Source of the DNA: Akkermansia muciniphila
Lineage (GTDB): Bacteria > Verrucomicrobiota > Verrucomicrobiia > Verrucomicrobiales > Akkermansiaceae
Length of the DNA: 64,000 nt
NCBI RefSeq assembly: GCF_900184965.1
Contig: NZ_FXYA01000214.1
Span: 1 to 64,000 of the forward strand
Reading direction: 5' to 3'
A program made the position numbers and the translations under genes. Position 1 is the stretch's first letter; each line of letters begins with the position of its first letter. The notes under the pieces are model-generated. The model did not search any database. It was not told the DNA's origin and worked only from the letters and a program-made list of their open reading frames with translations. Shown here piece after piece: positions 10,213-19,488 of the stretch.

Positions 10213-10599
10213 TTATTTAAACAGGCTGAGGAATTTTTTGCCGGCCAGGCCGAGCCCCATTTTTTTCAGGGAAGGAAAAGCCAGGGTGATCAGGATTTCA
10301 ACGATGAAACGGAAGATGGAGGAATGAACCCAGCTTCCGGAAGCGGGCGGCTGTGGGGAAGGGACCGGATTTCTTCTTTTTTTTCCCGTAAACATGCGGA
10401 TAAGAAGAACGCCACCCACCGTACCGACAATAGAGCCGATCACAGGCAGGGACATGGCCTTTTTTTTCAATTTACGGAAGTGGTCGGCCTGCTGCTGCGT
10501 CTTTTGCACCAGGCTGTCCGCTTCATTAACGATATCCAGCCGGGAGGAAGCCACCCGCATCAGGAGTGCGAGCTTTTCTTGAGAGCCATTTGCAGACAT
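10213..10599 (-). CDS. small membrane protein, third gene of a YqjD/YqjE/YqjK-like operon
   Basis: 128 residues with a soluble, charged N-terminal helix (about 1-48, KLALLMRVASSRLDIVNEAD), a hydrophobic segment (about 50-70, LPVIGSIVGTVGGVLLIRMF), a basic Pro-rich linker and a second hydrophobic stretch near 100-115. No family match is certain. Its start overlaps the end of the previous gene by 40 bases, a sign of translational coupling. By position and size it corresponds to YqjK, the third member of the enterobacterial yqjDEK set; this is an argument from context, not from clear homology. Confidence 0.7.
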   Translation of the reverse strand: MSANGSQEKLALLMRVASSRLDIVNEADSLVQKTQQQADHFRKLKKKAMSLPVIGSIVGTVGGVLLIRMFTGKKRRNPVPSPQPPASGSWVHSSIFRFIVEILITLAFPSLKKMGLGLAGKKFLSLFK

Positions 10600-11006
10600 G
10601 ATAAATCCGTTTTAAGTTCTTCCGCCGTCGCAGGAGCGATAGGCGTTACATGGGTTCGGCTGAAAAGGATGAACGCCGCGGCGGCCGCCAGGAGATGAAG
10701 CCCCGTGGTGACGGCAAGCCCGGCGATGAATCCCCAGAAGTACGCCATGACCACGGTCAGCAGGCACCACAGAAAAAGATAGCCGAAGAAGGCCATGAAA
10801 GCCCCCATCAGGAGAAGGGCCGTTTTTTTGCCCAGCCGTTTGGACGCTTCCTTCAGTTCCAGTTTGAGCAGTGCGGCCAGGGCTTCCGCATGGGCCAGGG
10901 CTGCCGTCCCGGTTTCCCGGAGGGACCGGACCATGGCCATTCCTTCTTCCTTTTCCTCCACAAGGGGGGTGACGAAGGTTCGCTTGAGTTTGTCAATCAG
11001 TCCCAT
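10560..11006 (-). CDS. YqjE-like membrane protein (DUF1469/phage holin superfamily)
   Basis: 148 residues. An amphipathic N-terminal helix rich in Glu, Lys and Ala (TALAHAEALAALLKLELKEA) precedes two close transmembrane helices (about 65-90 and 93-117) and a short soluble tail. This is the standard layout of the YqjE/Holin-X type, small inner-membrane proteins that are chromosomal and usually not phage. It is preceded by a YqjD-like gene and overlaps the next gene. The role is unknown in any bacterium beyond links to stationary phase and membrane association of ribosomes for the YqjD partner. Confidence 0.7.
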   Translation of the reverse strand: MGLIDKLKRTFVTPLVEEKEEGMAMVRSLRETGTAALAHAEALAALLKLELKEASKRLGKKTALLLMGAFMAFFGYLFLWCLLTVVMAYFWGFIAGLAVTTGLHLLAAAAAFILFSRTHVTPIAPATAEELKTDLSCLQMALKKSSHS

Positions 11007-11072
11007 GGTTCGGTTTGATGAGGGGAGGACGCCATGCGCGCGGCGCGCATGGCGCGGAATGAAAGGAGAGGG

Positions 11073-11399
11073 TTAGCGACGGCGGATAAGCAGGCCGATG
11101 AGAAGGCCCACGCCCATGGCAATCAGCACGGACTGGGTGGGTTTTTCCTTCACGTATTCTTCACCCGCTTCGTGAAACTTCTTGGCCTTGTCACGGATGA
11201 CTTCTCCCTTTTCCTGGGCGTAGTCGCAGATGGTGCTGGCCTGTTCCGTAGCCGCCTTGCGGATTTGATTTACTTTAGCCGCGGCGAAAGCCCTGGCCTG
11301 CTGGAATCTGGTGACGGCAAGCTCGCGGGCGGAAGGGCAGGAGCAGGAGGTGTCATTTGCTGCTGCGGTCGTTTCAAGTTCGGTTTGGTTGTCTTGCAT
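11073..11399 (-). CDS. YqjD/ElaB-like (DUF883) membrane-anchored protein
   Basis: 108 residues: a hydrophilic helical body with Ala/Glu/Lys heptads (about 25-85) and a single C-terminal anchor ending SVLIAMGVGLLIGLLIRRR. A Gly-rich final helix closed by Arg residues is the signature of the ElaB/YgaM/YqjD family, whose E. coli members bind ribosomes at the inner membrane. A four-residue CSCP patch near residue 19 is unusual. It heads the three-gene operon and has its own promoter (11478-11505) and a hairpin in the leader. Confidence 0.75.
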   Translation of the reverse strand: MQDNQTELETTAAANDTSCSCPSARELAVTRFQQARAFAAAKVNQIRKAATEQASTICDYAQEKGEVIRDKAKKFHEAGEEYVKEKPTQSVLIAMGVGLLIGLLIRRR

Positions 11400-11542: not shown

Positions 11543-12547
11543 TCAGCGGCGGCTTCCTGAAAAACCGCCGCGGGGGTCCGGTTTGACTTGGGGTTCGTTA
11601 GGATTCCGGTACCGCAGAATGCCGTAATCCCTTAGGTTACGGATGAATTCCTGAGCGTTGGCCCGGAAGCGCGCGTCGTACATGAGCAATCCCAGAAAGC
11701 CCTGGTTTTTACGTGCGTCAGCCGTGATGGAGGAGATTTGTTCAGATGCTTTCCTCAGAGCGGCCAGCGTAGGGGGGATTGCCTTGACGGCGGGATCCAG
11801 AGTGTTGAGTTTTTCTTCAGCTCCGGCAATGAGTTTGCGGGCATCCCGGACGGTGTCTTTCATGGCCGCGACCGAGGAGCGCGTTTCTTCCATGAGGCCG
11901 GGGAGCTGTTCTCCCGTCCGGTTTATTTGAGACAGTACGCTGCCGAGGTTTTGGAGGTTCTCCCGGTTCAGGATGCCCTCATTGATCAGCCTGGTCGTCT
12001 GGGCCAGCCCTTTGGCCGCCTCTCCGATATTGAGGATGGCGTCGTCAATGTTGTCCGAATTTTTCTCGATTTGCTTGAGGATTTTCAGGATTTCCTCTGT
12101 GGCGCCCACGGCATTGTTTTTGATTTTGCTGAAATCGCTCTCCGGCTGACCGATGATGGTGGCATGGGGAAGGATGTATTCATGCGTGGGCTGGGCCGGA
12201 GGGACGATATCAATGTATTTGTCGCCCAGGATGTTCTGCATGTCCACCCGGAAGACGGACCCTTGCTGGATTTTCACGTCGCTCTGGATGCTGGCTTCTA
12301 GCATGACTTCATTGCCGGAAGGCAGGAGTTCAGGGGCTTTGGTGACTTTCCCCACCGTGACGCCGCCCAGGCGGATTTGGGAATCCTTGATGAGCCCCGC
12401 CGCATCTTTGAAAATGATGTTGATGGGGTAGGTTTGCTCTTTGGATGTTTTGATGTTGCCGAATCCCAGGATGACTCCGATAATCATCAGGATTCCGGCG
12501 ATCAGAAAGAGGCCTACCCATGTTTCCGGTTTAAGTTTCTGTTTCAT
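11543..12547 (-). CDS. mlaD: MlaD/MCE-family lipid transport protein
   Basis: 334 residues: an N-terminal transmembrane anchor (about 11-30, WVGLFLIAGILMIIGVILGF), then one MCE domain (about 40-140, FKDAAGLIKDSQIRLGG, VTVGKVTK, GDKYIDI), then a long helical region with regularly spaced hydrophobics and a basic tail. MlaD hexamers in the periplasm bind phospholipid and sit on the MlaE/MlaF core. It is the last of three genes with 18-base spacing. E. coli MlaD is about 183 residues; the long C-terminal helical part resembles the larger MCE proteins that form tunnels. Confidence 0.88.
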   Translation of the reverse strand: MKQKLKPETWVGLFLIAGILMIIGVILGFGNIKTSKEQTYPINIIFKDAAGLIKDSQIRLGGVTVGKVTKAPELLPSGNEVMLEASIQSDVKIQQGSVFRVDMQNILGDKYIDIVPPAQPTHEYILPHATIIGQPESDFSKIKNNAVGATEEILKILKQIEKNSDNIDDAILNIGEAAKGLAQTTRLINEGILNRENLQNLGSVLSQINRTGEQLPGLMEETRSSVAAMKDTVRDARKLIAGAEEKLNTLDPAVKAIPPTLAALRKASEQISSITADARKNQGFLGLLMYDARFRANAQEFIRNLRDYGILRYRNPNEPQVKPDPRGGFSGSRR

Positions 12548-12565
12548 GGCTCTGTGGCAAGATGG

Positions 12566-13384
12566 TTATTGTTTGCGTTCCCGTTCCGCCCGTTCCAGCA
12601 GAACCCGTTGGAAATTTTCATTTTTGCCGGACAGGGCAGCCCAGTTTTCCCCGGAGTCCCCATACAGGAACTTTTGCAGGATTTCGTCTTTGGAGTGCAG
12701 CAGTTCTTCCGGAGTTCCCGTCCAGTAAACCTCACCGTTTCTGAGATAGACGATTTTGTCCGCGATGCGGATCACGCTGGGCATGTCATGGGAGACAATG
12801 ACGGTGGTGATGCCTTTGTCCTTGCAGATCCGCCGGATGAGGAAGCTGATGCTGTCCGTGACGATGGGGTCCAGGCCCGCGGTGGGTTCGTCATAGAGCA
12901 GGCATTCCGGAGTGGTAATGATTGCCCTGGCTACGGCGACGCGCTTGATCATGCCGCCGGAGAGGCTGGCCGGCATTTTTTCCTGCTGTCCCAGCAGCCC
13001 TACGGAGTCCAAAGCGGCTGAGATGCGGGTGTCCAGTTCGTTTTCATCCCTGATCCCCGCCTCCTGCAGAGGGAAAGCTACGTTTTCTCCCACGCTTAGG
13101 GAGTCGAATAAGGCCCCCTGCTGGAACATGAATCCGATTTTGCTGCGGATTTGCTTTTTGATTTTTTCCGGCGCGCCGCTGATGCGCCTGCCGTCTATTT
13201 CCACATAACCGTCCAAGGGTTCCATCAGGCCGTCCAGATGTTTCAGAATGACGCTTTTCCCGGCTCCGGAGCCCCCTATTAAAGCCATCAGTTCTCCTTT
13301 GCCCACGTCAAAGCTTACGCCTTTCAGCACTTCCTGGGTGCCGAAGCTTTGTCTGAGCTGGTGGACGCGGATGAATGGCTGCAT
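12566..13384 (-). CDS. mlaF: MlaF-like ABC transporter ATPase
   Basis: 272 residues, a single ABC ATPase domain: Walker A GGSGAGKS near 37-44, Q-loop FMFQQGALFDSLSV (the GALFDS form is characteristic of MlaF), signature LSGGM, Walker B ECLLYDEPTAGLDP and switch SHDMPS. Together with MlaE and MlaD it moves phospholipids between inner and outer membrane to keep outer-membrane asymmetry. It sits between mlaE (15 bases) and mlaD (18 bases). No mlaA, mlaB or mlaC gene is nearby. Confidence 0.93.
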   Translation of the reverse strand: MQPFIRVHQLRQSFGTQEVLKGVSFDVGKGELMALIGGSGAGKSVILKHLDGLMEPLDGYVEIDGRRISGAPEKIKKQIRSKIGFMFQQGALFDSLSVGENVAFPLQEAGIRDENELDTRISAALDSVGLLGQQEKMPASLSGGMIKRVAVARAIITTPECLLYDEPTAGLDPIVTDSISFLIRRICKDKGITTVIVSHDMPSVIRIADKIVYLRNGEVYWTGTPEELLHSKDEILQKFLYGDSGENWAALSGKNENFQRVLLERAERERKQ

Positions 13385-13399
13385 GGCGGCGGGGAAAGG

Positions 13400-14200
13400 C
13401 TATCTCATGAATCCCATGGGGAAGAACGAGTTGAGGATCATGGTCAGGATAAAGTTGGCGATGAGCAGGGCCACGGAAGCGTACACCATGGCCTGCATGG
13501 TGGATTTGCCTACGCCCACGGCGCCGTTTGTAGTGTTCAGCCCCTCCCGGCAGGAGATGGTGGAAATGATGAGGCCGAAAGCAAGAGCCTTGACCAGGGC
13601 GACGATAATGTCCCCCATAGTGACAAATTTGCTCATGAAGTGCATCCAGTAGGCCTGGTCTACGTTAAAAGCGGTGACGCTGACGATGTATGCGGAGGCG
13701 ATGCCCACCAGAACGGCTTCCATCATCAGAATGGGCATGGAAATAAGCATGGCCTGTATCCGCGGCTTCACCAGGTAGTCTACCGGATCCACATTCATGG
13801 AGTTGAGGGCATCCACCTGTTCCGTGACTTTCATGGTGCCGATTTCCGCGGCCATGGCGGACCCGACGCGCCCCGCAAGCATCAGCCCGGTGATGACGGG
13901 CCCCAGCTCCCGGAACATGCCCACGGCGACGACGGCCCCGCCCATGGTTTCCATTCTCACCGTTTGAAGCTGGAACAGTGTCTGGGCTTCCAGCACCGCT
14001 CCGGTGAACGCGCCGGTGATGATGACCACCGGCTGGGATTGCACCCCGATTTTTGCAATTTGCTCCACAAGCACGCGCATCCGGAACTGACCGGACCACA
14101 TGCATGAAGCCACTTGGTAAAGCAGCAATCCGATTGACCCCAACCGGTCAACCAGCCTTAAAGCGGCGCGGCCGATCATGGTTGCTACATGGAATTGCAT
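13400..14200 (-). CDS. mlaE: MlaE-family lipid ABC transporter permease
   Basis: 266 residues, the usual MlaE length, with about 5-6 helices. Family blocks present: QFRMRVLVEQIAKIGVQS, VVIITGAFTGAVLE, RELGPVITGLMLAGRVGSA, AEIGTMKVTEQVDAL and the late GREGL-like SCREGLNTTNGAVGVG. It forms the inner-membrane core of the Mla/MCE transporter. First gene of mlaE-mlaF-mlaD on the minus strand; 75 bases separate it from the NadE-like gene upstream. Confidence 0.93.
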   Translation of the reverse strand: MQFHVATMIGRAALRLVDRLGSIGLLLYQVASCMWSGQFRMRVLVEQIAKIGVQSQPVVIITGAFTGAVLEAQTLFQLQTVRMETMGGAVVAVGMFRELGPVITGLMLAGRVGSAMAAEIGTMKVTEQVDALNSMNVDPVDYLVKPRIQAMLISMPILMMEAVLVGIASAYIVSVTAFNVDQAYWMHFMSKFVTMGDIIVALVKALAFGLIISTISCREGLNTTNGAVGVGKSTMQAMVYASVALLIANFILTMILNSFFPMGFMR

Positions 14201-14275: not shown

Positions 14276-15682
14276 TCAGTCTGCCAGCCGATGGATATAA
14301 GGCGTTTCCTGCGTTCCGGGGATGGAGCGCAGCATGAGGCGGGGCGGCAGTTTCAGGCGCGTCCATTCGGATGCGCGGGCCTGCCGCTGCAAACGGCGTA
14401 TTTCCCTTTCCGATTCCGGGAACCGGTTCGCCAGCTCCGTGGCGGATTCATGTTTCCGGTGCAGACGGATGAGAAATCCGTCACGCATGGCGGCCTCCGG
14501 AGCCGGGGAAATGAAACCGGGGAACAGGTTTGCCAGTTCCGTCTCGTATAAATCCCCCAGCGGCATGAAATCCGCGGCTAAAGCGGCAGGAAGGAAGCGG
14601 GGCTCCGTCATGATATCCGTTCCCGTCAGAGAAGAGAGCGGCAGGGCTCCTTCTTCTTCCGCCCATTGGCGCATGAGCCATGCGGCCGTGGCTCTTTCGT
14701 CCAGCCCTTCGGTTTTGTTAGGGAGAGAAACCGTCCGTACGCCAATGCCAGCCGCGCCGGCGAAGGCTTGAACCTTTTCCCTTGTCTCTTCCGGAATGCC
14801 GGGCAGGGCGGGGATAAACCCCGTTATTGCCAGAGAGGGCCGCATTTCCTTCAATAGTTCCGCTAACAGAAGGGAAGCGGAATTTTCCAGCAAATTCAGG
14901 CAGACGGCCCCATACCCGCTTTTCAAAATGAAGTCTTCCATCCCTTTGCGGAGGGCGTGCCGGAGCTGTTTTTCCGGGGAGGGCAGGGGGGAGTCCGTTT
15001 CTGTGGAGTTTTCCGGTGAAATGACGGCGAAGTCCCGTTCAAAAAGACGCAGCCGTTTGAGAAGATGTCCGTTGCCGGACCATACGGAAGATGCGCCGGG
15101 CAGCAGAAACGGACCTTCTCCCCCGGCCAGGCGGGCCGTCAATACGGGGAGACCTGTTTTCCGCGCCGTACGGCGGGCTTCTGCCTCATCCTGTTCCAGC
15201 AGCCCCTCATGCCATGCATGGGCGGGCGTGCGGAGCAGCAGGCATGTGGAGGAAACGTGCGGCGGCGGAATTTCTTCCCGCGGGGCGATGGAGAAAACGG
15301 CTTCATCCTCCGTTCTCCGGATGCCAAAGACGGGGACGCGTTCGTTTCCATGCGGGGAGGGAGGGATAACGGCCTGCCGGGGAAAGGAAAGTCCGTTCCT
15401 CAACAGGTGGAATCGGATTCCTTCCGCGTCCGCCGCTCCCAGTAGCAGGGGGACGTCCGCTATTTCCCGTGCCAGGTAGGCCAGGGCCGCCCGGTGCTGG
15501 GCCCGGAAGCCGCTGCGCAAAGCCAGTTCACCGGTATGTACGCCGCTGAGGGCCAGCGGCGGACAGAGGACGAGCTCCGCGCCTGCGTCCAGGCAGGAGC
15601 GGTACAGTTCCACGATGGCTCTGAGGTTTCGGGGAAAGTGGCCGGGAATGGTTTCCGGTTGGATGAATCCTGTTTTCAGCAT
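14276..15682 (-). CDS. NAD-synthetase-like pseudoenzyme (NadE fold, both active sites lost)
   Basis: 468 residues that align end to end with glutamine-dependent NAD+ synthetase: an N-terminal nitrilase-like domain (about 1-230) and a C-terminal NAD-synthase-like domain (about 240-440). Shared landmarks are CPPLALSG, the ARKTGLPV...GGEG stretch, LTGTDIM and ADFMPLGDLYETELANL. The catalytic parts are gone. The nitrilase Glu of FPELALTG is Pro42. No Lys or ICED-type Cys is visible where expected (residues 125-140 read APREEIPPP). The synthase loop SGGxDS is replaced by LENSAS (265-270). A working NadE is usually 540 residues or more. It was probably kept for a binding or structural role. It reads as a clean open frame, so it is not a simple pseudogene. 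Confidence 0.75.
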   Translation of the reverse strand: MLKTGFIQPETIPGHFPRNLRAIVELYRSCLDAGAELVLCPPLALSGVHTGELALRSGFRAQHRAALAYLAREIADVPLLLGAADAEGIRFHLLRNGLSFPRQAVIPPSPHGNERVPVFGIRRTEDEAVFSIAPREEIPPPHVSSTCLLLRTPAHAWHEGLLEQDEAEARRTARKTGLPVLTARLAGGEGPFLLPGASSVWSGNGHLLKRLRLFERDFAVISPENSTETDSPLPSPEKQLRHALRKGMEDFILKSGYGAVCLNLLENSASLLLAELLKEMRPSLAITGFIPALPGIPEETREKVQAFAGAAGIGVRTVSLPNKTEGLDERATAAWLMRQWAEEEGALPLSSLTGTDIMTEPRFLPAALAADFMPLGDLYETELANLFPGFISPAPEAAMRDGFLIRLHRKHESATELANRFPESEREIRRLQRQARASEWTRLKLPPRLMLRSIPGTQETPYIHRLAD

Positions 15683-15690
15683 GCGACGGA

Positions 15691-15719
15691 AAGGTAGACT
15701 ATTACGGGGCGGCGGGCAA
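15691..15719 (-). promoter_or_regulatory. promoter of the NadE-like gene
   Basis: CTTGCCC with 17 bases to TACCTT on the minus strand. The -10 box ends only 8 bases before the ATG at 15682, which implies a leaderless or nearly leaderless message. Confidence 0.55.
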
Positions 15720-15859
15720 GCCGGGATGACCGGAGGTCCGCCCCCATGCCTTTACTCATGCAGTTTTTATTTCAAGGAGCTTGTCATTCACGGTCTTCAT
15801 GGTATGATCCCTGCCGATTGCGCGCCGTCCGTTCCCGGGCGCGGCTATTCGGAATACTT

Positions 15860-17710
15860 ATGAGGAAACAGTCAACAGAGGGGCAGGAATCCTCCATCCA
15901 GCGCGCCAGGGCATTGTGGCGCGAGTATCTTCTTCCTTATAGGGGCACGCTGGCGTGGGCTGTGGTCGGAGGCGTGGTGGCCGCTGTTGCCAGCGGTTTC
16001 GGCATTCCGGTGATTTTACAGGAGATGTTTCCCGTGATTTTTGACGGGAAACCGCTGCCCCCCTGGGCGGAACGCGTGCTCTTGTGGTATGTGAGCCCGG
16101 AAAACCTGCCCCTGGTGACGGTGTGGGCCACGGCGGCCATGCTCCCGCTGGTGGTGGTGGTGCGCGGCCTGTCATCTTTTGTCAATGTCTATTTGCTTTC
16201 CAAAATAGGGCTGGGAGTGCTGGAAACGTTGCGGCTCAAGGTTTACCGAAAGTATCAGGATTTGTCCCTGGCTTTTCACGACCGGCAGCAGAAGGGGGAC
16301 CTGTTGAGCCGCCTGATGCAGGATACCCAGTTTCTCCAGGGAGGCCTGGTGCAGATTGCCAATGACCTCATTATCCAGCCCCTGACTCTTTTGGCCGCGT
16401 TAGGGTTTCTGATTTACAGGGCTTCCGTCAGCCAGCAGTTTCTTATTCTGCTGGCGAATATGCTCCTGGTAGGCGTTTGCGTGATTCCCATTCGGTACAT
16501 CGGCAAGAAAATGCTTGCCCGCGCCCGGGTGGTGCAATCCAGCCAGGGGGATCTTTCCTCCACGCTTCAGGAGAATTTTTCTTCCCAGCGGGATATCCGG
16601 GCCTTTGAACTGGAACAGCAGCAGATAGGGCTGTTCAGAGACAGAATCCGCCGTTATATCCAGGCGTCTATCGGCGCGGTTAGGTGGCAGAGCTTGCTGA
16701 CCCCCTTGATTGAGTTCGTCAGCGCCATAGCCATGGCCGCCACCCTGCTGGTTGGCAATATGAACGGCATGAACATGGGGGATTTTGCCGCGCTGGCCAC
16801 GGCCATGTATCTTTGCTATGAGCCGGTCAAGAAGCTGGGTTCCGTCCATAACAAGGCGGAAACCCTTAATGCCGGTCTGGAACGCATCAACCACGTGCTG
16901 AATGCTCCGGATGACGTGCCCGAACCGGAAAATCCAAGAAGCCCGGAGGCATGGAAGGGGGAAGTGGAGTTCCGCAACGTTTGCTTCGGTTATCAGCAGG
17001 ACTCCCCCGTCATGAGGAACATTGATCTCCGCATTCCGGCCGGACAGGTGGTGGCCCTGGTCGGGCCCAGCGGAGCAGGGAAGACGACATTCATTAATTT
17101 GCTGTGCCGTTTTTATGATGTCCTTTCCGGCAGCGTGAAGGTGGACGGCATCGACGTGCGGGAGATGGGTAAAAAGGATCTTCTTTCCCACATAGCGCTG
17201 GTTTCCCAGTATCCCGTTCTGTTCCGCGGCTCCGTGGCGGACAATATTCGCATCGGCCGTCCGGACGCTTCCGACGCGGAAGTGGAAGAAGCCGGGCGCA
17301 TGTCCGCCGTGGACAGTTTTATCCATGAGACGGGGGAAGGGTATTCCCGCATGATCGGGGAAATGGGGGAAGGGCTTTCCGGCGGCCAGCGGCAGCGCGT
17401 TTCCCTGGCGAGGGCCTTTCTGAAAAACGCTCCCATCCTGGTGCTGGATGAAGCCACGGCTTCCCTGGATATGAAGAGCGAGGAACAGATTCAGAAGGAG
17501 ATTGAGAAACTGGCTTCCGGCCGCACGACGTTCATTATTGCCCACCGTTTCAGCACCATCCGGATGGCGGACCGCATTCTGGTGCTGGAGAAGGGAAGCG
17601 TGGTTGCGGACGGCACGCATGAAGAGCTGATGGCTTCTTCTCCCCTGTACCGGGAACTTTACAATAAGCAGCAGATGATTGCGGAGGAGGAAGGAGGCGC
17701 CTCATGTTAA
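15860..17710 (+). CDS. ABC exporter half-transporter (MsbA-like), first of a pair
   Basis: 616 residues from the ATG at 15860 (MRKQSTEG). The frame is open 38 codons further up, but that stretch runs into the divergent promoter region. An N-terminal six-helix exporter domain (about 30-330) includes DRQQKGDLLSRLMQD, and a C-terminal ABC ATPase follows with Walker A GPSGAGKTT, Q-loop LVSQYPVLF, signature LSGGQRQR, Walker B ILVLDEATASLD and switch IAHR. All ATPase motifs are intact. MsbA-type exporters flip lipid A-core or other lipids across the inner membrane. Its stop overlaps the start of a very similar gene by 7 bases, so the two may form a heterodimer. Confidence 0.88.
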   Translation: MRKQSTEGQESSIQRARALWREYLLPYRGTLAWAVVGGVVAAVASGFGIPVILQEMFPVIFDGKPLPPWAERVLLWYVSPENLPLVTVWATAAMLPLVVVVRGLSSFVNVYLLSKIGLGVLETLRLKVYRKYQDLSLAFHDRQQKGDLLSRLMQDTQFLQGGLVQIANDLIIQPLTLLAALGFLIYRASVSQQFLILLANMLLVGVCVIPIRYIGKKMLARARVVQSSQGDLSSTLQENFSSQRDIRAFELEQQQIGLFRDRIRRYIQASIGAVRWQSLLTPLIEFVSAIAMAATLLVGNMNGMNMGDFAALATAMYLCYEPVKKLGSVHNKAETLNAGLERINHVLNAPDDVPEPENPRSPEAWKGEVEFRNVCFGYQQDSPVMRNIDLRIPAGQVVALVGPSGAGKTTFINLLCRFYDVLSGSVKVDGIDVREMGKKDLLSHIALVSQYPVLFRGSVADNIRIGRPDASDAEVEEAGRMSAVDSFIHETGEGYSRMIGEMGEGLSGGQRQRVSLARAFLKNAPILVLDEATASLDMKSEEQIQKEIEKLASGRTTFIIAHRFSTIRMADRILVLEKGSVVADGTHEELMASSPLYRELYNKQQMIAEEEGGASC

Positions 17711-19488
17711 GACAGTTTTTTGAATATGCGCGGTATTTGAAGCCCGTGATGAAGCTGTTCATCGCCGCTCTGGCTGCCGGGGCCCTGGCAGCCGCCGCCA
17801 GCGGTTTCGGTTTTCCGCTGATGATTGCCAAAGTATTTCCGGTGGTATTCGACAATACACAGATTCCCCCGGAGCTCCAGGACATGATCGCCCGGCTGGT
17901 GGCCCCGGAACACATGCGCATGGCGGTGCTGCTGGCCGTATGCTCCCTGCTGCCTCTGGTCTTCGCCGTCCGGGGCATAGGCACGTTCTTCAACGTGTAC
18001 TGGATCAGCATCGTCAGCATGAAAGTGCTGGAGGCAATCCGGCTGGACGCCTTTTCCAAATTGCAGACGCTGCCCCTTTCCTTCATTGACCGTCAGAAAC
18101 GGGGGGACCTGATCAGCCGGCTTATCAATGACGCCGCCAACGTGCAGGGGGGGCTGGTGGTTGCGGCCAATGACATCATCAAGCAGCCCCTGACTCTGCT
18201 GACCGCCCTTGCCTTCCTGGTGTACAAGGTATTTGTTGATCCGAATACGGCTTTGGTCCTGATGAATCTGGGGCTGATTGCGCTGGCCATATGGCCCATC
18301 CGCTTTTTCGGCCGCCGCGTGATGAAGAAGTCCAAACAGGCTCAGGACGAACTGGGCAATATTACGGCCGCCGCCCAGGAGAATTTGGCCTCCCAGCGTG
18401 AAATCCGTTCCTACGGAATGCAGGAACAACAGGTAAAACTTTTCCTGGGGCTGATTCAGCGTTTTTTCAAAATCAATCTCAGAACGGTGAAGTACAGGCA
18501 CTTCCTGGTTCCCGTGCTGGAAATGGTGACGGCGCTGGGCCTGGGCGTTTTGCTGGTAAGGGGGCATGAAATGGGCATCACCAAGGCTGATTTCACTGCT
18601 TTGGCCGCCGCCCTGTTCATGTGTTACGACCCTCTCAAACGGCTGGGCGTGACGCTCACCAATTTGAAGAGCGCTTATGCCTCCCTGGAGCGCATCAATT
18701 ACCTCCTGAAAGAACCGGATACCATGCCGGAGGCCGTTGATCCCGTTCCTATGGGACGCGCCGCCGGCCGCCTGGATTATGACGGCGTTTCCTTTTCCTA
18801 TGATGGCGCCCGCAAGGTGCTGGACGGTATCAACGTGCATATCCGCCCCGGGGAAGTAGTGGGGCTGGTAGGGCCCAGCGGCGCCGGAAAGACGACATTT
18901 GCCAGCCTCCTTCCCAGGTTTTATGACGTTAGTTCCGGAGCCCTGCGCGTGGATGGCGTGGATGTGAGGGACGCTTCCCTGCATGATGTGCGTAAGAATA
19001 TCGCCTTCGTCTCCCAGCACCCCGTCCTGTTCCACGGCACCATTATGGAAAATATCCGTCTGGGACGTCAGGACGCTACGGATGATGAGGTGGTGGCCGC
19101 GGCGCGCGCCGCGGCTGCGGACGGTTTCATCATGGGTATGCCGGACGGCTATCAAACCATGCTTGGCGACGGAGGCAGCGGATTGTCCGGCGGCCAGCGG
19201 CAGCGCGTAGCGATTGCCCGCGCTTTCCTGAAGGATGCTCCCATCCTGATTCTGGATGAAGCCACCGCGTCCCTGGACGCGGAAAGCGAGGCCCTGATCC
19301 AGCAGGAACTGGACCGGCTGGTGGAGGGAAGGACGGCGCTTATTGTGGCCCACCGTTTCAGTTCCATCCGCGTGGCGACGCGCATTCTGGTGTTTGAGGG
19401 CGGGCGCATCGTCGGGGACGGTTCCCATGCAGAGCTTTATGCCTCTTGCCCGTTGTACCGGGAGCTGTATGACCGCCAGTCCCTCTAA
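17704..19488 (+). CDS. ABC exporter half-transporter (MsbA-like), second of a pair
   Basis: 594 residues with the same fusion layout as the preceding gene: six-helix exporter domain with DRQKRGDLISRLIND, then an ATPase with GPSGAGKTT, LSGGQRQR, ILILDEATASLD and VAHR. It starts at an ATG inside the last codons of the first gene (overlap 17704-17710), strong evidence of coupled translation and likely heterodimer formation. Both nucleotide-binding domains look catalytically complete, unlike the many heterodimers with one degenerate site. Cargo is unknown; lipid A or a related lipid is the default guess. Confidence 0.88.
   Translation: MLRQFFEYARYLKPVMKLFIAALAAGALAAAASGFGFPLMIAKVFPVVFDNTQIPPELQDMIARLVAPEHMRMAVLLAVCSLLPLVFAVRGIGTFFNVYWISIVSMKVLEAIRLDAFSKLQTLPLSFIDRQKRGDLISRLINDAANVQGGLVVAANDIIKQPLTLLTALAFLVYKVFVDPNTALVLMNLGLIALAIWPIRFFGRRVMKKSKQAQDELGNITAAAQENLASQREIRSYGMQEQQVKLFLGLIQRFFKINLRTVKYRHFLVPVLEMVTALGLGVLLVRGHEMGITKADFTALAAALFMCYDPLKRLGVTLTNLKSAYASLERINYLLKEPDTMPEAVDPVPMGRAAGRLDYDGVSFSYDGARKVLDGINVHIRPGEVVGLVGPSGAGKTTFASLLPRFYDVSSGALRVDGVDVRDASLHDVRKNIAFVSQHPVLFHGTIMENIRLGRQDATDDEVVAAARAAAADGFIMGMPDGYQTMLGDGGSGLSGGQRQRVAIARAFLKDAPILILDEATASLDAESEALIQQELDRLVEGRTALIVAHRFSSIRVATRILVFEGGRIVGDGSHAELYASCPLYRELYDRQSL

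Follow-up and report, generated by a model that had tools for sequence, protein, structure and literature searches.

A NAD synthetase-derived gene of Akkermansia that lacks both active sites and is probably maintained as a noncatalytic protein

The window analyzed here, a stretch of 64,000 nucleotides of Akkermansia muciniphila (positions 1 to 64,000 of contig NZ_FXYA01000214.1, assembly GCF_900184965.1), contains a gene whose product, judging from its sequence, derives from the glutamine-dependent NAD synthetase of the dimeric type 2 (NadE2). This protein is very probably a pseudoenzyme, and the best explanation that we can offer for it, which we consider reasonably likely, is that of a maintained NadE2 derivative without catalytic function that serves as a binding or scaffold protein, probably as a dimer. 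The loss of the sites, the retention of the gene, the selection acting on it, and the residues that have become fixed in it speak together for a maintained pseudoenzyme and not for a decaying gene.

The gene and its predicted protein

The open reading frame, on the minus strand, has 468 codons and zero internal stops, and is thus as intact as a first-pass annotation of the window had reported. Its features are the following.

14276..15682, minus strand: gene of 468 amino acids plus stop, very probably coding for a NadE2-derived pseudoenzyme (open reading frame, profile and structure-sequence searches, structure model)
15428..15682, minus strand: codons 1 to 85, N-terminal part of the nitrilase fold and the best-conserved stretch across the genus, with G5, Q8, N19, R21, R28, C30, E73, and P78 (alignment)
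15557..15559, minus strand: Pro42 codon, aligned with the catalytic Glu of the nitrilase site (alignment)
15212..15214, minus strand: Trp157 codon, in the strand that carries SPF in intact enzymes; Trp in 65/65 genus rows, Phe or Tyr in 16/16 intact relatives (alignment)
14873..14890, minus strand: codons 265 to 270, LENSAS, where intact enzymes have the synthetase P-loop SGGxDS (alignment)
14279..14302, minus strand: codons 461 to 468, conserved C-terminal tail with the consensus P..HRLND (alignment; model pLDDT below 50 at residues 462 to 468)

At the level of sequence, the resemblance to NadE is weak and patchy. The window protein scores 49.4 bits (E value of 2.3e-13) against the NCBIfam family NF010588, far under the cut-off of 479 bits (an intact relative reaches 687.1 bits), and it matches the Burkholderia thailandensis enzyme 4f4h in two patches (E value of 8.5e-15), while a Pfam scan gave nothing at an E value of 0.001 or better, with CN_hydrolase appearing only below the threshold. 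Separate genus matches that lie inside residues 1 to 89 show 41 to 56% identity. The alignment with NadE over the whole length that the first-pass annotation described therefore holds only in patches by sequence, and it is the structure model that secures it from end to end. This model, for which the window protein was aligned with 37 proteins drawn from 39 records, is confident (mean pLDDT of 86.3, pTM of 0.85). Foldseek matched it to the entire two-domain enzyme 3n05 (E value of 1.3e-25), VIA-align superposed 456 residues on the same structure with a Z score of 30.0 and an rmsd of 3.1, and the predicted structure joins a nitrilase and a synthetase domain in a single chain that has the NadE fold. 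NF010588, 4f4h, and the predicted fold all support the derivation from NadE that had been proposed.

The passages of PMC7196632 cited here divide the two-domain NadE enzymes into an octameric type 1 and a dimeric type 2 and place the B. thailandensis enzyme in type 2, which is also the kind to which the closest relatives of the window protein belong (NF010588, 4f4h). The NadE1 enzymes (Mycobacterium tuberculosis 3dla/6ofc, NF002730) share a superfamily with the window protein, but here NadE1 is a separate gene of 644 amino acids and not the ancestral kind of the window gene. The ammonia-dependent NadE enzymes (2e18, 3p52) have a P..LY motif that is also present in A. glycaniphila and in the window protein; however, they are active and consist of a single domain, and the two-domain 3n05 also has P...Y at that place.

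Loss of the catalytic residues

The catalytic triad of the nitrilase (glutaminase) domain, Glu-Lys-Cys, is visible in the intact relatives, and SGGxDS, GNKSE, and KPPSAEL are the loops of the NAD synthetase site. In the window protein, Pro42 occupies the position of the nitrilase Glu, residues 4 to 174 contain no Lys, Cys occurs only at positions 30, 40, 147, and 261 (the one at 147 is not conserved among relatives), LENSAS (residues 265 to 270) replaces SGGxDS, and the KPPSAEL loop is deleted. Pro42, the missing Lys and Cys partners, and LENSAS had all been read in this way in the first-pass annotation, whose conclusion that both catalytic centers are lost holds for the window protein and across the genus rows apart from that of A. 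glycaniphila.

The rows compared were 67 from the genus and 19 from other genera (after three duplicate loci were dropped), to which 3 more were added later to give 22 from other genera. With A. glycaniphila excluded, the nitrilase Glu, Lys, and Cys were found at their own columns in 0, 0, and 0 of the 66 genus rows, and the patterns SGG.[DE]S, K.LLP, and [CS]ED[IVL]W, at any position, again in 0, 0, and 0 (one of the 66 rows, that of G018, ends at a contig edge ahead of the synthetase loop). In the 22 rows from other genera, the three columns are filled in 20, 20, and 18 cases and the three patterns are present in 16, 20, and 18. Looser patterns do occur in genus rows (PE[LMH][AS]L in 1, SAEL in 4, and S.G..S in 5), with every match off-site. 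Within six columns of the old site, Lys is present in 9 and Cys in 17 of the 66 genus rows, never together with Glu. Apart from that of A. glycaniphila, the genus rows have no SGGxDS or NKSE loop, what remains of KPPSAEL is at most a shortened loop, and we found no conserved replacement of the P-loop among them. Displaced catalytic residues, which had been named as a reason to abandon the pseudoenzyme reading, are not visible in the window protein, and we reject them there, as neither a Lys nor a conserved Cys lies near its former active site.

Compared with NadE2 (4f4h, NF010588), the window protein keeps the order of the two domains, the fold, and conserved N- and C-terminal residues, but it lacks the triad and the SGGxDS, GNKSE, and KPPSAEL loops, has 468 amino acids versus approximately 545, and falls below the family cut-off. 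Triad, loops, and cut-off are thus three tested features of an active type 2 NadE that are wanting in it, and we have filed it as a NadE2-derived pseudoenzyme.

Retention and selection in the genus

Relatives of the gene were recovered in 67/76 Akkermansia genomes. A profile re-search of the remaining nine gave no match, which indicates that some genomes do without the gene. Complete single frames with a stop codon account for 65 of the 67 relatives, the others being that of G018, cut by the end of the contig, and that of G046, which is split. Pseudogenization in most strains, which would have spoken against a retained protein, was not seen, as the split frame is 1 among 67; the gene is kept, as the first-pass annotation had supposed, with an intact frame in nearly all the relatives found. 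The G046 relative (L072:3033-4617) runs over two overlapping frames, the result of an assembly error or of a frameshift. Most full-length matches from beyond the A. muciniphila group have 27 to 35% identity.

The dN/dS comparison, proposed in the first-pass annotation, points to purifying selection: 17 pairs of dead genes gave values of 0.08 to 0.55, of which 16 did not exceed 0.41. The corresponding values are 0.04 and 0.065 for two pairs of intact NadE2 and 0.016 to 0.064 for 8 pairs of the neighboring mlaE, so the dead gene is under looser constraint than either. Among the decayed copies, the selection tests covered those of Akkermansia. An excess of silent changes over the whole gene was significant by Fisher's test in 13/13 pairs (P from 4e-5 to 2e-72), although the pairs share branches and are not independent. 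For the synthetase half, the excess was significant in all 13 pairs, and 3 of the 21 regional tests within the A. muciniphila group were nonsignificant, all of them in the nitrilase half. In neutral simulations, 20% change introduced a mean of 7.4 stops and left 0/500 runs stop-free, and 30% change left 1/500. Neither the frame damage nor the neutral evolution of a pseudogene was found, dN/dS being below 1, and the gene combines the loss of catalytic residues in a descendant of an active enzyme with an intact frame under purifying selection, as a pseudoenzyme does.

Several residues have become characteristic of the genus. R21 is present in 65/65 genus rows, where 16/16 intact relatives have K; P374 in 64/65, where 16/16 intact relatives have V; and Y379 in 59/65. 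Other residues are common to the genus rows and the intact enzymes (G5, Q8, R28, E73, P78, G196, S198, E425, R433, and P461). Fixed residues, both old and new, beside variable catalytic positions are the pattern that a retained noncatalytic protein should show.

A half-dead copy in A. glycaniphila

The copy of A. glycaniphila strain Pyt (G002, NZ_LIGX01000021.1; gene at L112:4004-5590, the same as L058) has lost the nitrilase triad and keeps SGGVDS, TGNKSE, and KAPSAEL intact. It scores 422.4 bits against NF010588, also under the cut-off, and it has the genus-specific R21, W157, P374, Y379, and P446. Since an upstream sigma-54 activator gene is common to this copy and to the dead copies of G003, G045, G057, G058, and G061, we regard it as the positional orthologue. 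The half-dead form, together with the shared genus-specific residues, indicates that the glutaminase was likely lost first and the synthetase later. No NadE1 was found in A. glycaniphila, where the other PF02540 matches are weak (22 to 25 bits, covering part of the domain). Because the single NAD synthetase found there lacks the glutaminase triad, NAD synthesis in this species may depend on free ammonia.

How many times the synthetase site was lost depends on the position of A. glycaniphila. The NadE2 gene tree puts it outside all the dead copies and prefers a single loss after a basal split of this species, but both marker trees reject such a placement as sister to all the others (rpoB, P = 2.6e-6; gyrB, P = 8.9e-5). 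The rpoB tree groups A. glycaniphila with the non-muciniphila clade, whereas in the gyrB tree it lies next to A. muciniphila, and a place in the non-muciniphila clade is rejected (P = 1.6e-5). The part of PMC10540074 cited here reports an 87-gene tree with A. glycaniphila in clade B, apart from A. muciniphila. The NadE2 data themselves do not reject the rpoB-like, clade-B arrangement (P = 0.12) or a broad gyrB-like one (P = 0.077), although the exact gyrB arrangement is rejected (P = 0.003). Taken together, these results make two or more losses of the synthetase site likely, short of proof. The G002 assembly contains two gyrB copies with equal scores (C1 and C18; L173 and L190) and has a contamination estimate of 6%.

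NadE1, PII, and decayed copies in other genera

The real NadE that the first-pass annotation had thought possible elsewhere turned up in the search for canonical nadE genes. It is a separate intact protein of 644 amino acids, encoded on another contig (G000:C2:240286-242217, P0002), which scores 817.8 bits against the NF002730 cut-off of 473 and has intact PEL, K..LP, CED, and SGGxDS motifs; we take it as the type 1 kind, NadE1. At least a partial NadE1 is present in 64 of the 66 genus genomes that carry the dead gene. Completeness is 76 and 79% for the two genomes with no match, and G072, counted among the 64, contributes a piece of only 50 residues. NadE1 without a dead NadE2 relative was seen in 8 genus genomes. 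The NadE1 matches of G011, G059, G064, G065, G066, and G030 are reported with one or two in-frame stop codons. In G071, a genus genome that is 97% complete, neither type of NadE was found, which could reflect an assembly gap or another supply of NAD. Ten genomes (G021, G043, G026, G031, G014, G033, G016, G032, G018, and G028) have a third, short NadE-like frame of 259 to 272 amino acids with the synthetase domain only, probably of the ammonia-dependent type (the G031 copy scores 164.4 bits against PF02540).

Among the 22 type 2 copies read from other genera, 17, from 9 of the 15 other genera, look active, that is, they have Glu, Lys, and Cys in place and SGGxDS (TGGVDS in G113). Reading covered only some of the 15 genera, and g8 and g15 gave no match to type 2 NadE. 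Decay was nevertheless not confined to Akkermansia.

L196, L197, L198, L088, and L075 (genera g9 and g14): type 2 NadE genes with open frames, decayed to varying degrees, each accompanied by a type 1-like NadE

In g9, both sites are dead in G083; in G105 and G141, the Glu and Lys of the nitrilase site remain, with Cys changed to Gly and NGS or NGN loops; and G147 keeps the nitrilase triad, with an SGGIGS loop. In g14, both sites are dead in G088. Each of these five genomes has a type 1-like frame of 655 to 681 amino acids, approximately 30% identical to that of the window's genome. The G083 and G105 copies occupy the gene order of the intact g9 copies, and G113, also from g9, has an active-looking NadE2 and no type 1 match. 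A rule by which NadE1 always kills NadE2 is rejected, as 4 of the 17 active-looking rows from other genera (G093, G151, G190, and G206) have an intact NadE2 and a type 1-like frame together.

Type 2 NadE has been tied to nitrogen sensing through PII, a dissociable NadE2 subunit that binds the enzyme and relieves its inhibition by NAD+ (PMC7196632, in the passages cited here). The PII (GlnB/GlnK) domain was found in 0/76 Akkermansia genomes. In the family, it is present in 95/117 genomes and in 15/16 genera, Akkermansia being the genus without it; each of the 15 other genera sampled has PII in at least one genome, and a match is also missing in some individual genomes of those genera, such as G101, which has an intact NadE2. 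The idea that the window gene persists as a PII-binding remnant is therefore rejected for the genus. The PII-NadE2 complex, as those passages present it, offers a likeness in that a noncatalytic protein tunes a NAD synthetase, but PII regulates an active NadE2, whereas in Akkermansia no PII is found and NadE2 is dead.

Genomic neighborhood

Two further features flank the gene in the window.

11543..14200, minus strand: mlaE, an ABC ATPase gene (mlaF-like), and mlaD, with the mlaE start 75 bases past the stop codon of the gene (annotation)
15693..15727, minus strand: upstream block containing CTTG (ATCCCGGCTTG.CCG), a candidate promoter (conservation)

The gene and an ABC exporter gene are divergently oriented in the A. 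muciniphila group, where mlaE follows the gene on the same strand in 12/12 genomes, as it also does in G011. The distance from the last sense codon to mlaE is 62 to 81 bases, except in G046 with its split frame, and cotranscription with mlaE, the mlaF-like gene, and mlaD is possible in this group. For the other genus relatives examined, the fetched flanks (1.5 to 3 kb) contain no mla gene, with the exception of G011. Within 1.5 to 3 kb, the A. muciniphila group has other neighbors than most of the genus, so that no partner gene is constant over that distance, and mlaEFD is rejected as a general reason for the retention of the gene.

The upstream block is identical at all but one base in the 11/11 sequences of the A. 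muciniphila group that were compared (G046 excluded). The CTTGCC promoter claimed for the gene was borne out to the extent that CTTG lies in this conserved block; a sigma-70 scan of the gene's strand found no site. On the plus strand, at 15746-19488, the window has two tandem ABC exporter genes with a 7-base overlap (17704-17710) that possibly form a heterodimeric exporter. Downstream of mlaD, at 10560-11399 on the minus strand, are genes for small membrane proteins of the DUF883 type and like those of holin superfamily III.

Possible function and alternative explanations

The first-pass annotation had offered a regulator, a scaffold, or a nucleotide sensor as the role of the protein. A nucleotide sensor at the old site now appears unlikely because the ATP and NaAD loops (SGGxDS, NKSE, and KPPSAEL) are gone or shortened everywhere in the genus except in A. 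glycaniphila. A binding or scaffold role of some kind seems to us reasonably probable. In the scheme that we propose, the glutaminase site would have died on the way to Akkermansia, with R21, W157, and P374 becoming fixed and Y379 nearly so. A. glycaniphila would retain this half-dead form as the sole NAD synthetase found in it, while in the other lineages NadE1 would cover catalysis and the synthetase site would have died too, probably more than once. What was left, a noncatalytic and probably dimeric protein, would act via the face of the nitrilase fold (residues 1 to 85 and W157) and the C-terminal helix and tail; given the absence of the ATP and NaAD loops, it is on the N-terminal nitrilase part, the remodeled strand of W157, and this C-terminal region that we place the likely working face. 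The first candidate for a partner would be a protein of NAD metabolism, either NadE1 or the NaAD-making enzyme. A role tied to NAD metabolism is plausible from the descent of the protein and its co-occurrence with NadE1, and we put it forward with considerable doubt. It is also a tentative suggestion of ours that NadE2 in Akkermansiaceae has a second job that is independent of catalysis. Where the type 1 enzyme took over (Akkermansia, g9, and g14), the active sites would have been shed and yet the folded binding protein kept, in Akkermansia alongside a loss of PII; A. glycaniphila would represent a half-dead intermediate with a sole, ammonia-fed NAD synthetase.

The dead NadE2 could instead be a subunit or regulator of NadE1 itself, binding the working enzyme to tune or stabilize it as PII does for NadE2. 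It does co-occur with NadE1 in 64/66 dead-gene genomes of the genus, a type 1-like frame is found in 5/5 genomes of other genera with a decayed copy, and Akkermansia has no PII (0/76), the subunit that plays this part elsewhere according to the passages of PMC7196632 cited here. The same passages, however, give type 1 as an octamer and type 2 as a dimer, 8 genus genomes have NadE1 without the dead gene, and the co-occurrence would also be expected if NadE1 merely permits the loss, so that we consider this explanation unlikely. Rather more doubtful is a slowly decaying relic that lost its use once NadE1 took over, with the residual constraint only avoiding harmful misfolding or polar effects downstream. 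The relaxed dN/dS relative to mlaE and intact NadE2, the 9/76 genomes where the gene was not found, the split frame of G046, and the fast divergence between clades (27 to 35% identity for most full-length matches that do not belong to the A. muciniphila group) would all fit such a relic. They have to be set against 65/67 complete single frames among relatives that, when distant, share only about 30% identity, the fixation in 64 to 65 of 65 rows of residues missing from the intact enzymes, the strong silent excess, and the confident fold.

Two other possibilities seem very improbable to us. The gene could be kept as a leader for the expression of the lipid-transport operon mlaEFD, with the protein itself unimportant, and the constant position of mlaE in the A. 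muciniphila group (12/12 genomes, and G011) agrees with this; but the protein is also kept where mla is not adjacent, and purifying selection on it was seen there, with dN/dS mostly as low or lower. Similarly, the protein could still be an enzyme that works with displaced catalytic residues or by new chemistry, given that the fold is kept, that the nitrilase domain contains R21 and W157, which could be part of a remodeled pocket, and that 17/66 genus rows have a Cys no more than six columns from the old one. Against an enzyme stand the stretch from residue 4 to 174 without Lys and the lack of a conserved Cys near the old site in the window protein, the absence of Glu and Lys from their own columns in 66/66 rows, and a P-loop with no conserved replacement.

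NAD synthetase is essential in many bacteria. If the protein is the maintained, noncatalytic NadE2 derivative that we favor, a NadE dead at both sites in most of the genus and a half-dead form in a cultured species would make the path from enzyme to nonenzyme testable in gut bacteria that can be grown. Under this reading, A. glycaniphila should rely on free ammonia alone to make NAD, and NadE2 should have a function that can be separated from catalysis. We found no published description of a dead NadE in the open-access literature, and the portion of PMC3376133, on the NAD synthetase family, that is cited here has no mention of Akkermansia, Verrucomicrob-, inactive, or paralog. PF02540 matches 34 of the 38 family members (A. 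glycaniphila included among the 38) at an E value of 0.001 or better, and a "NAD synthase" name transferred from such Pfam matches would be wrong for relatives of this kind.
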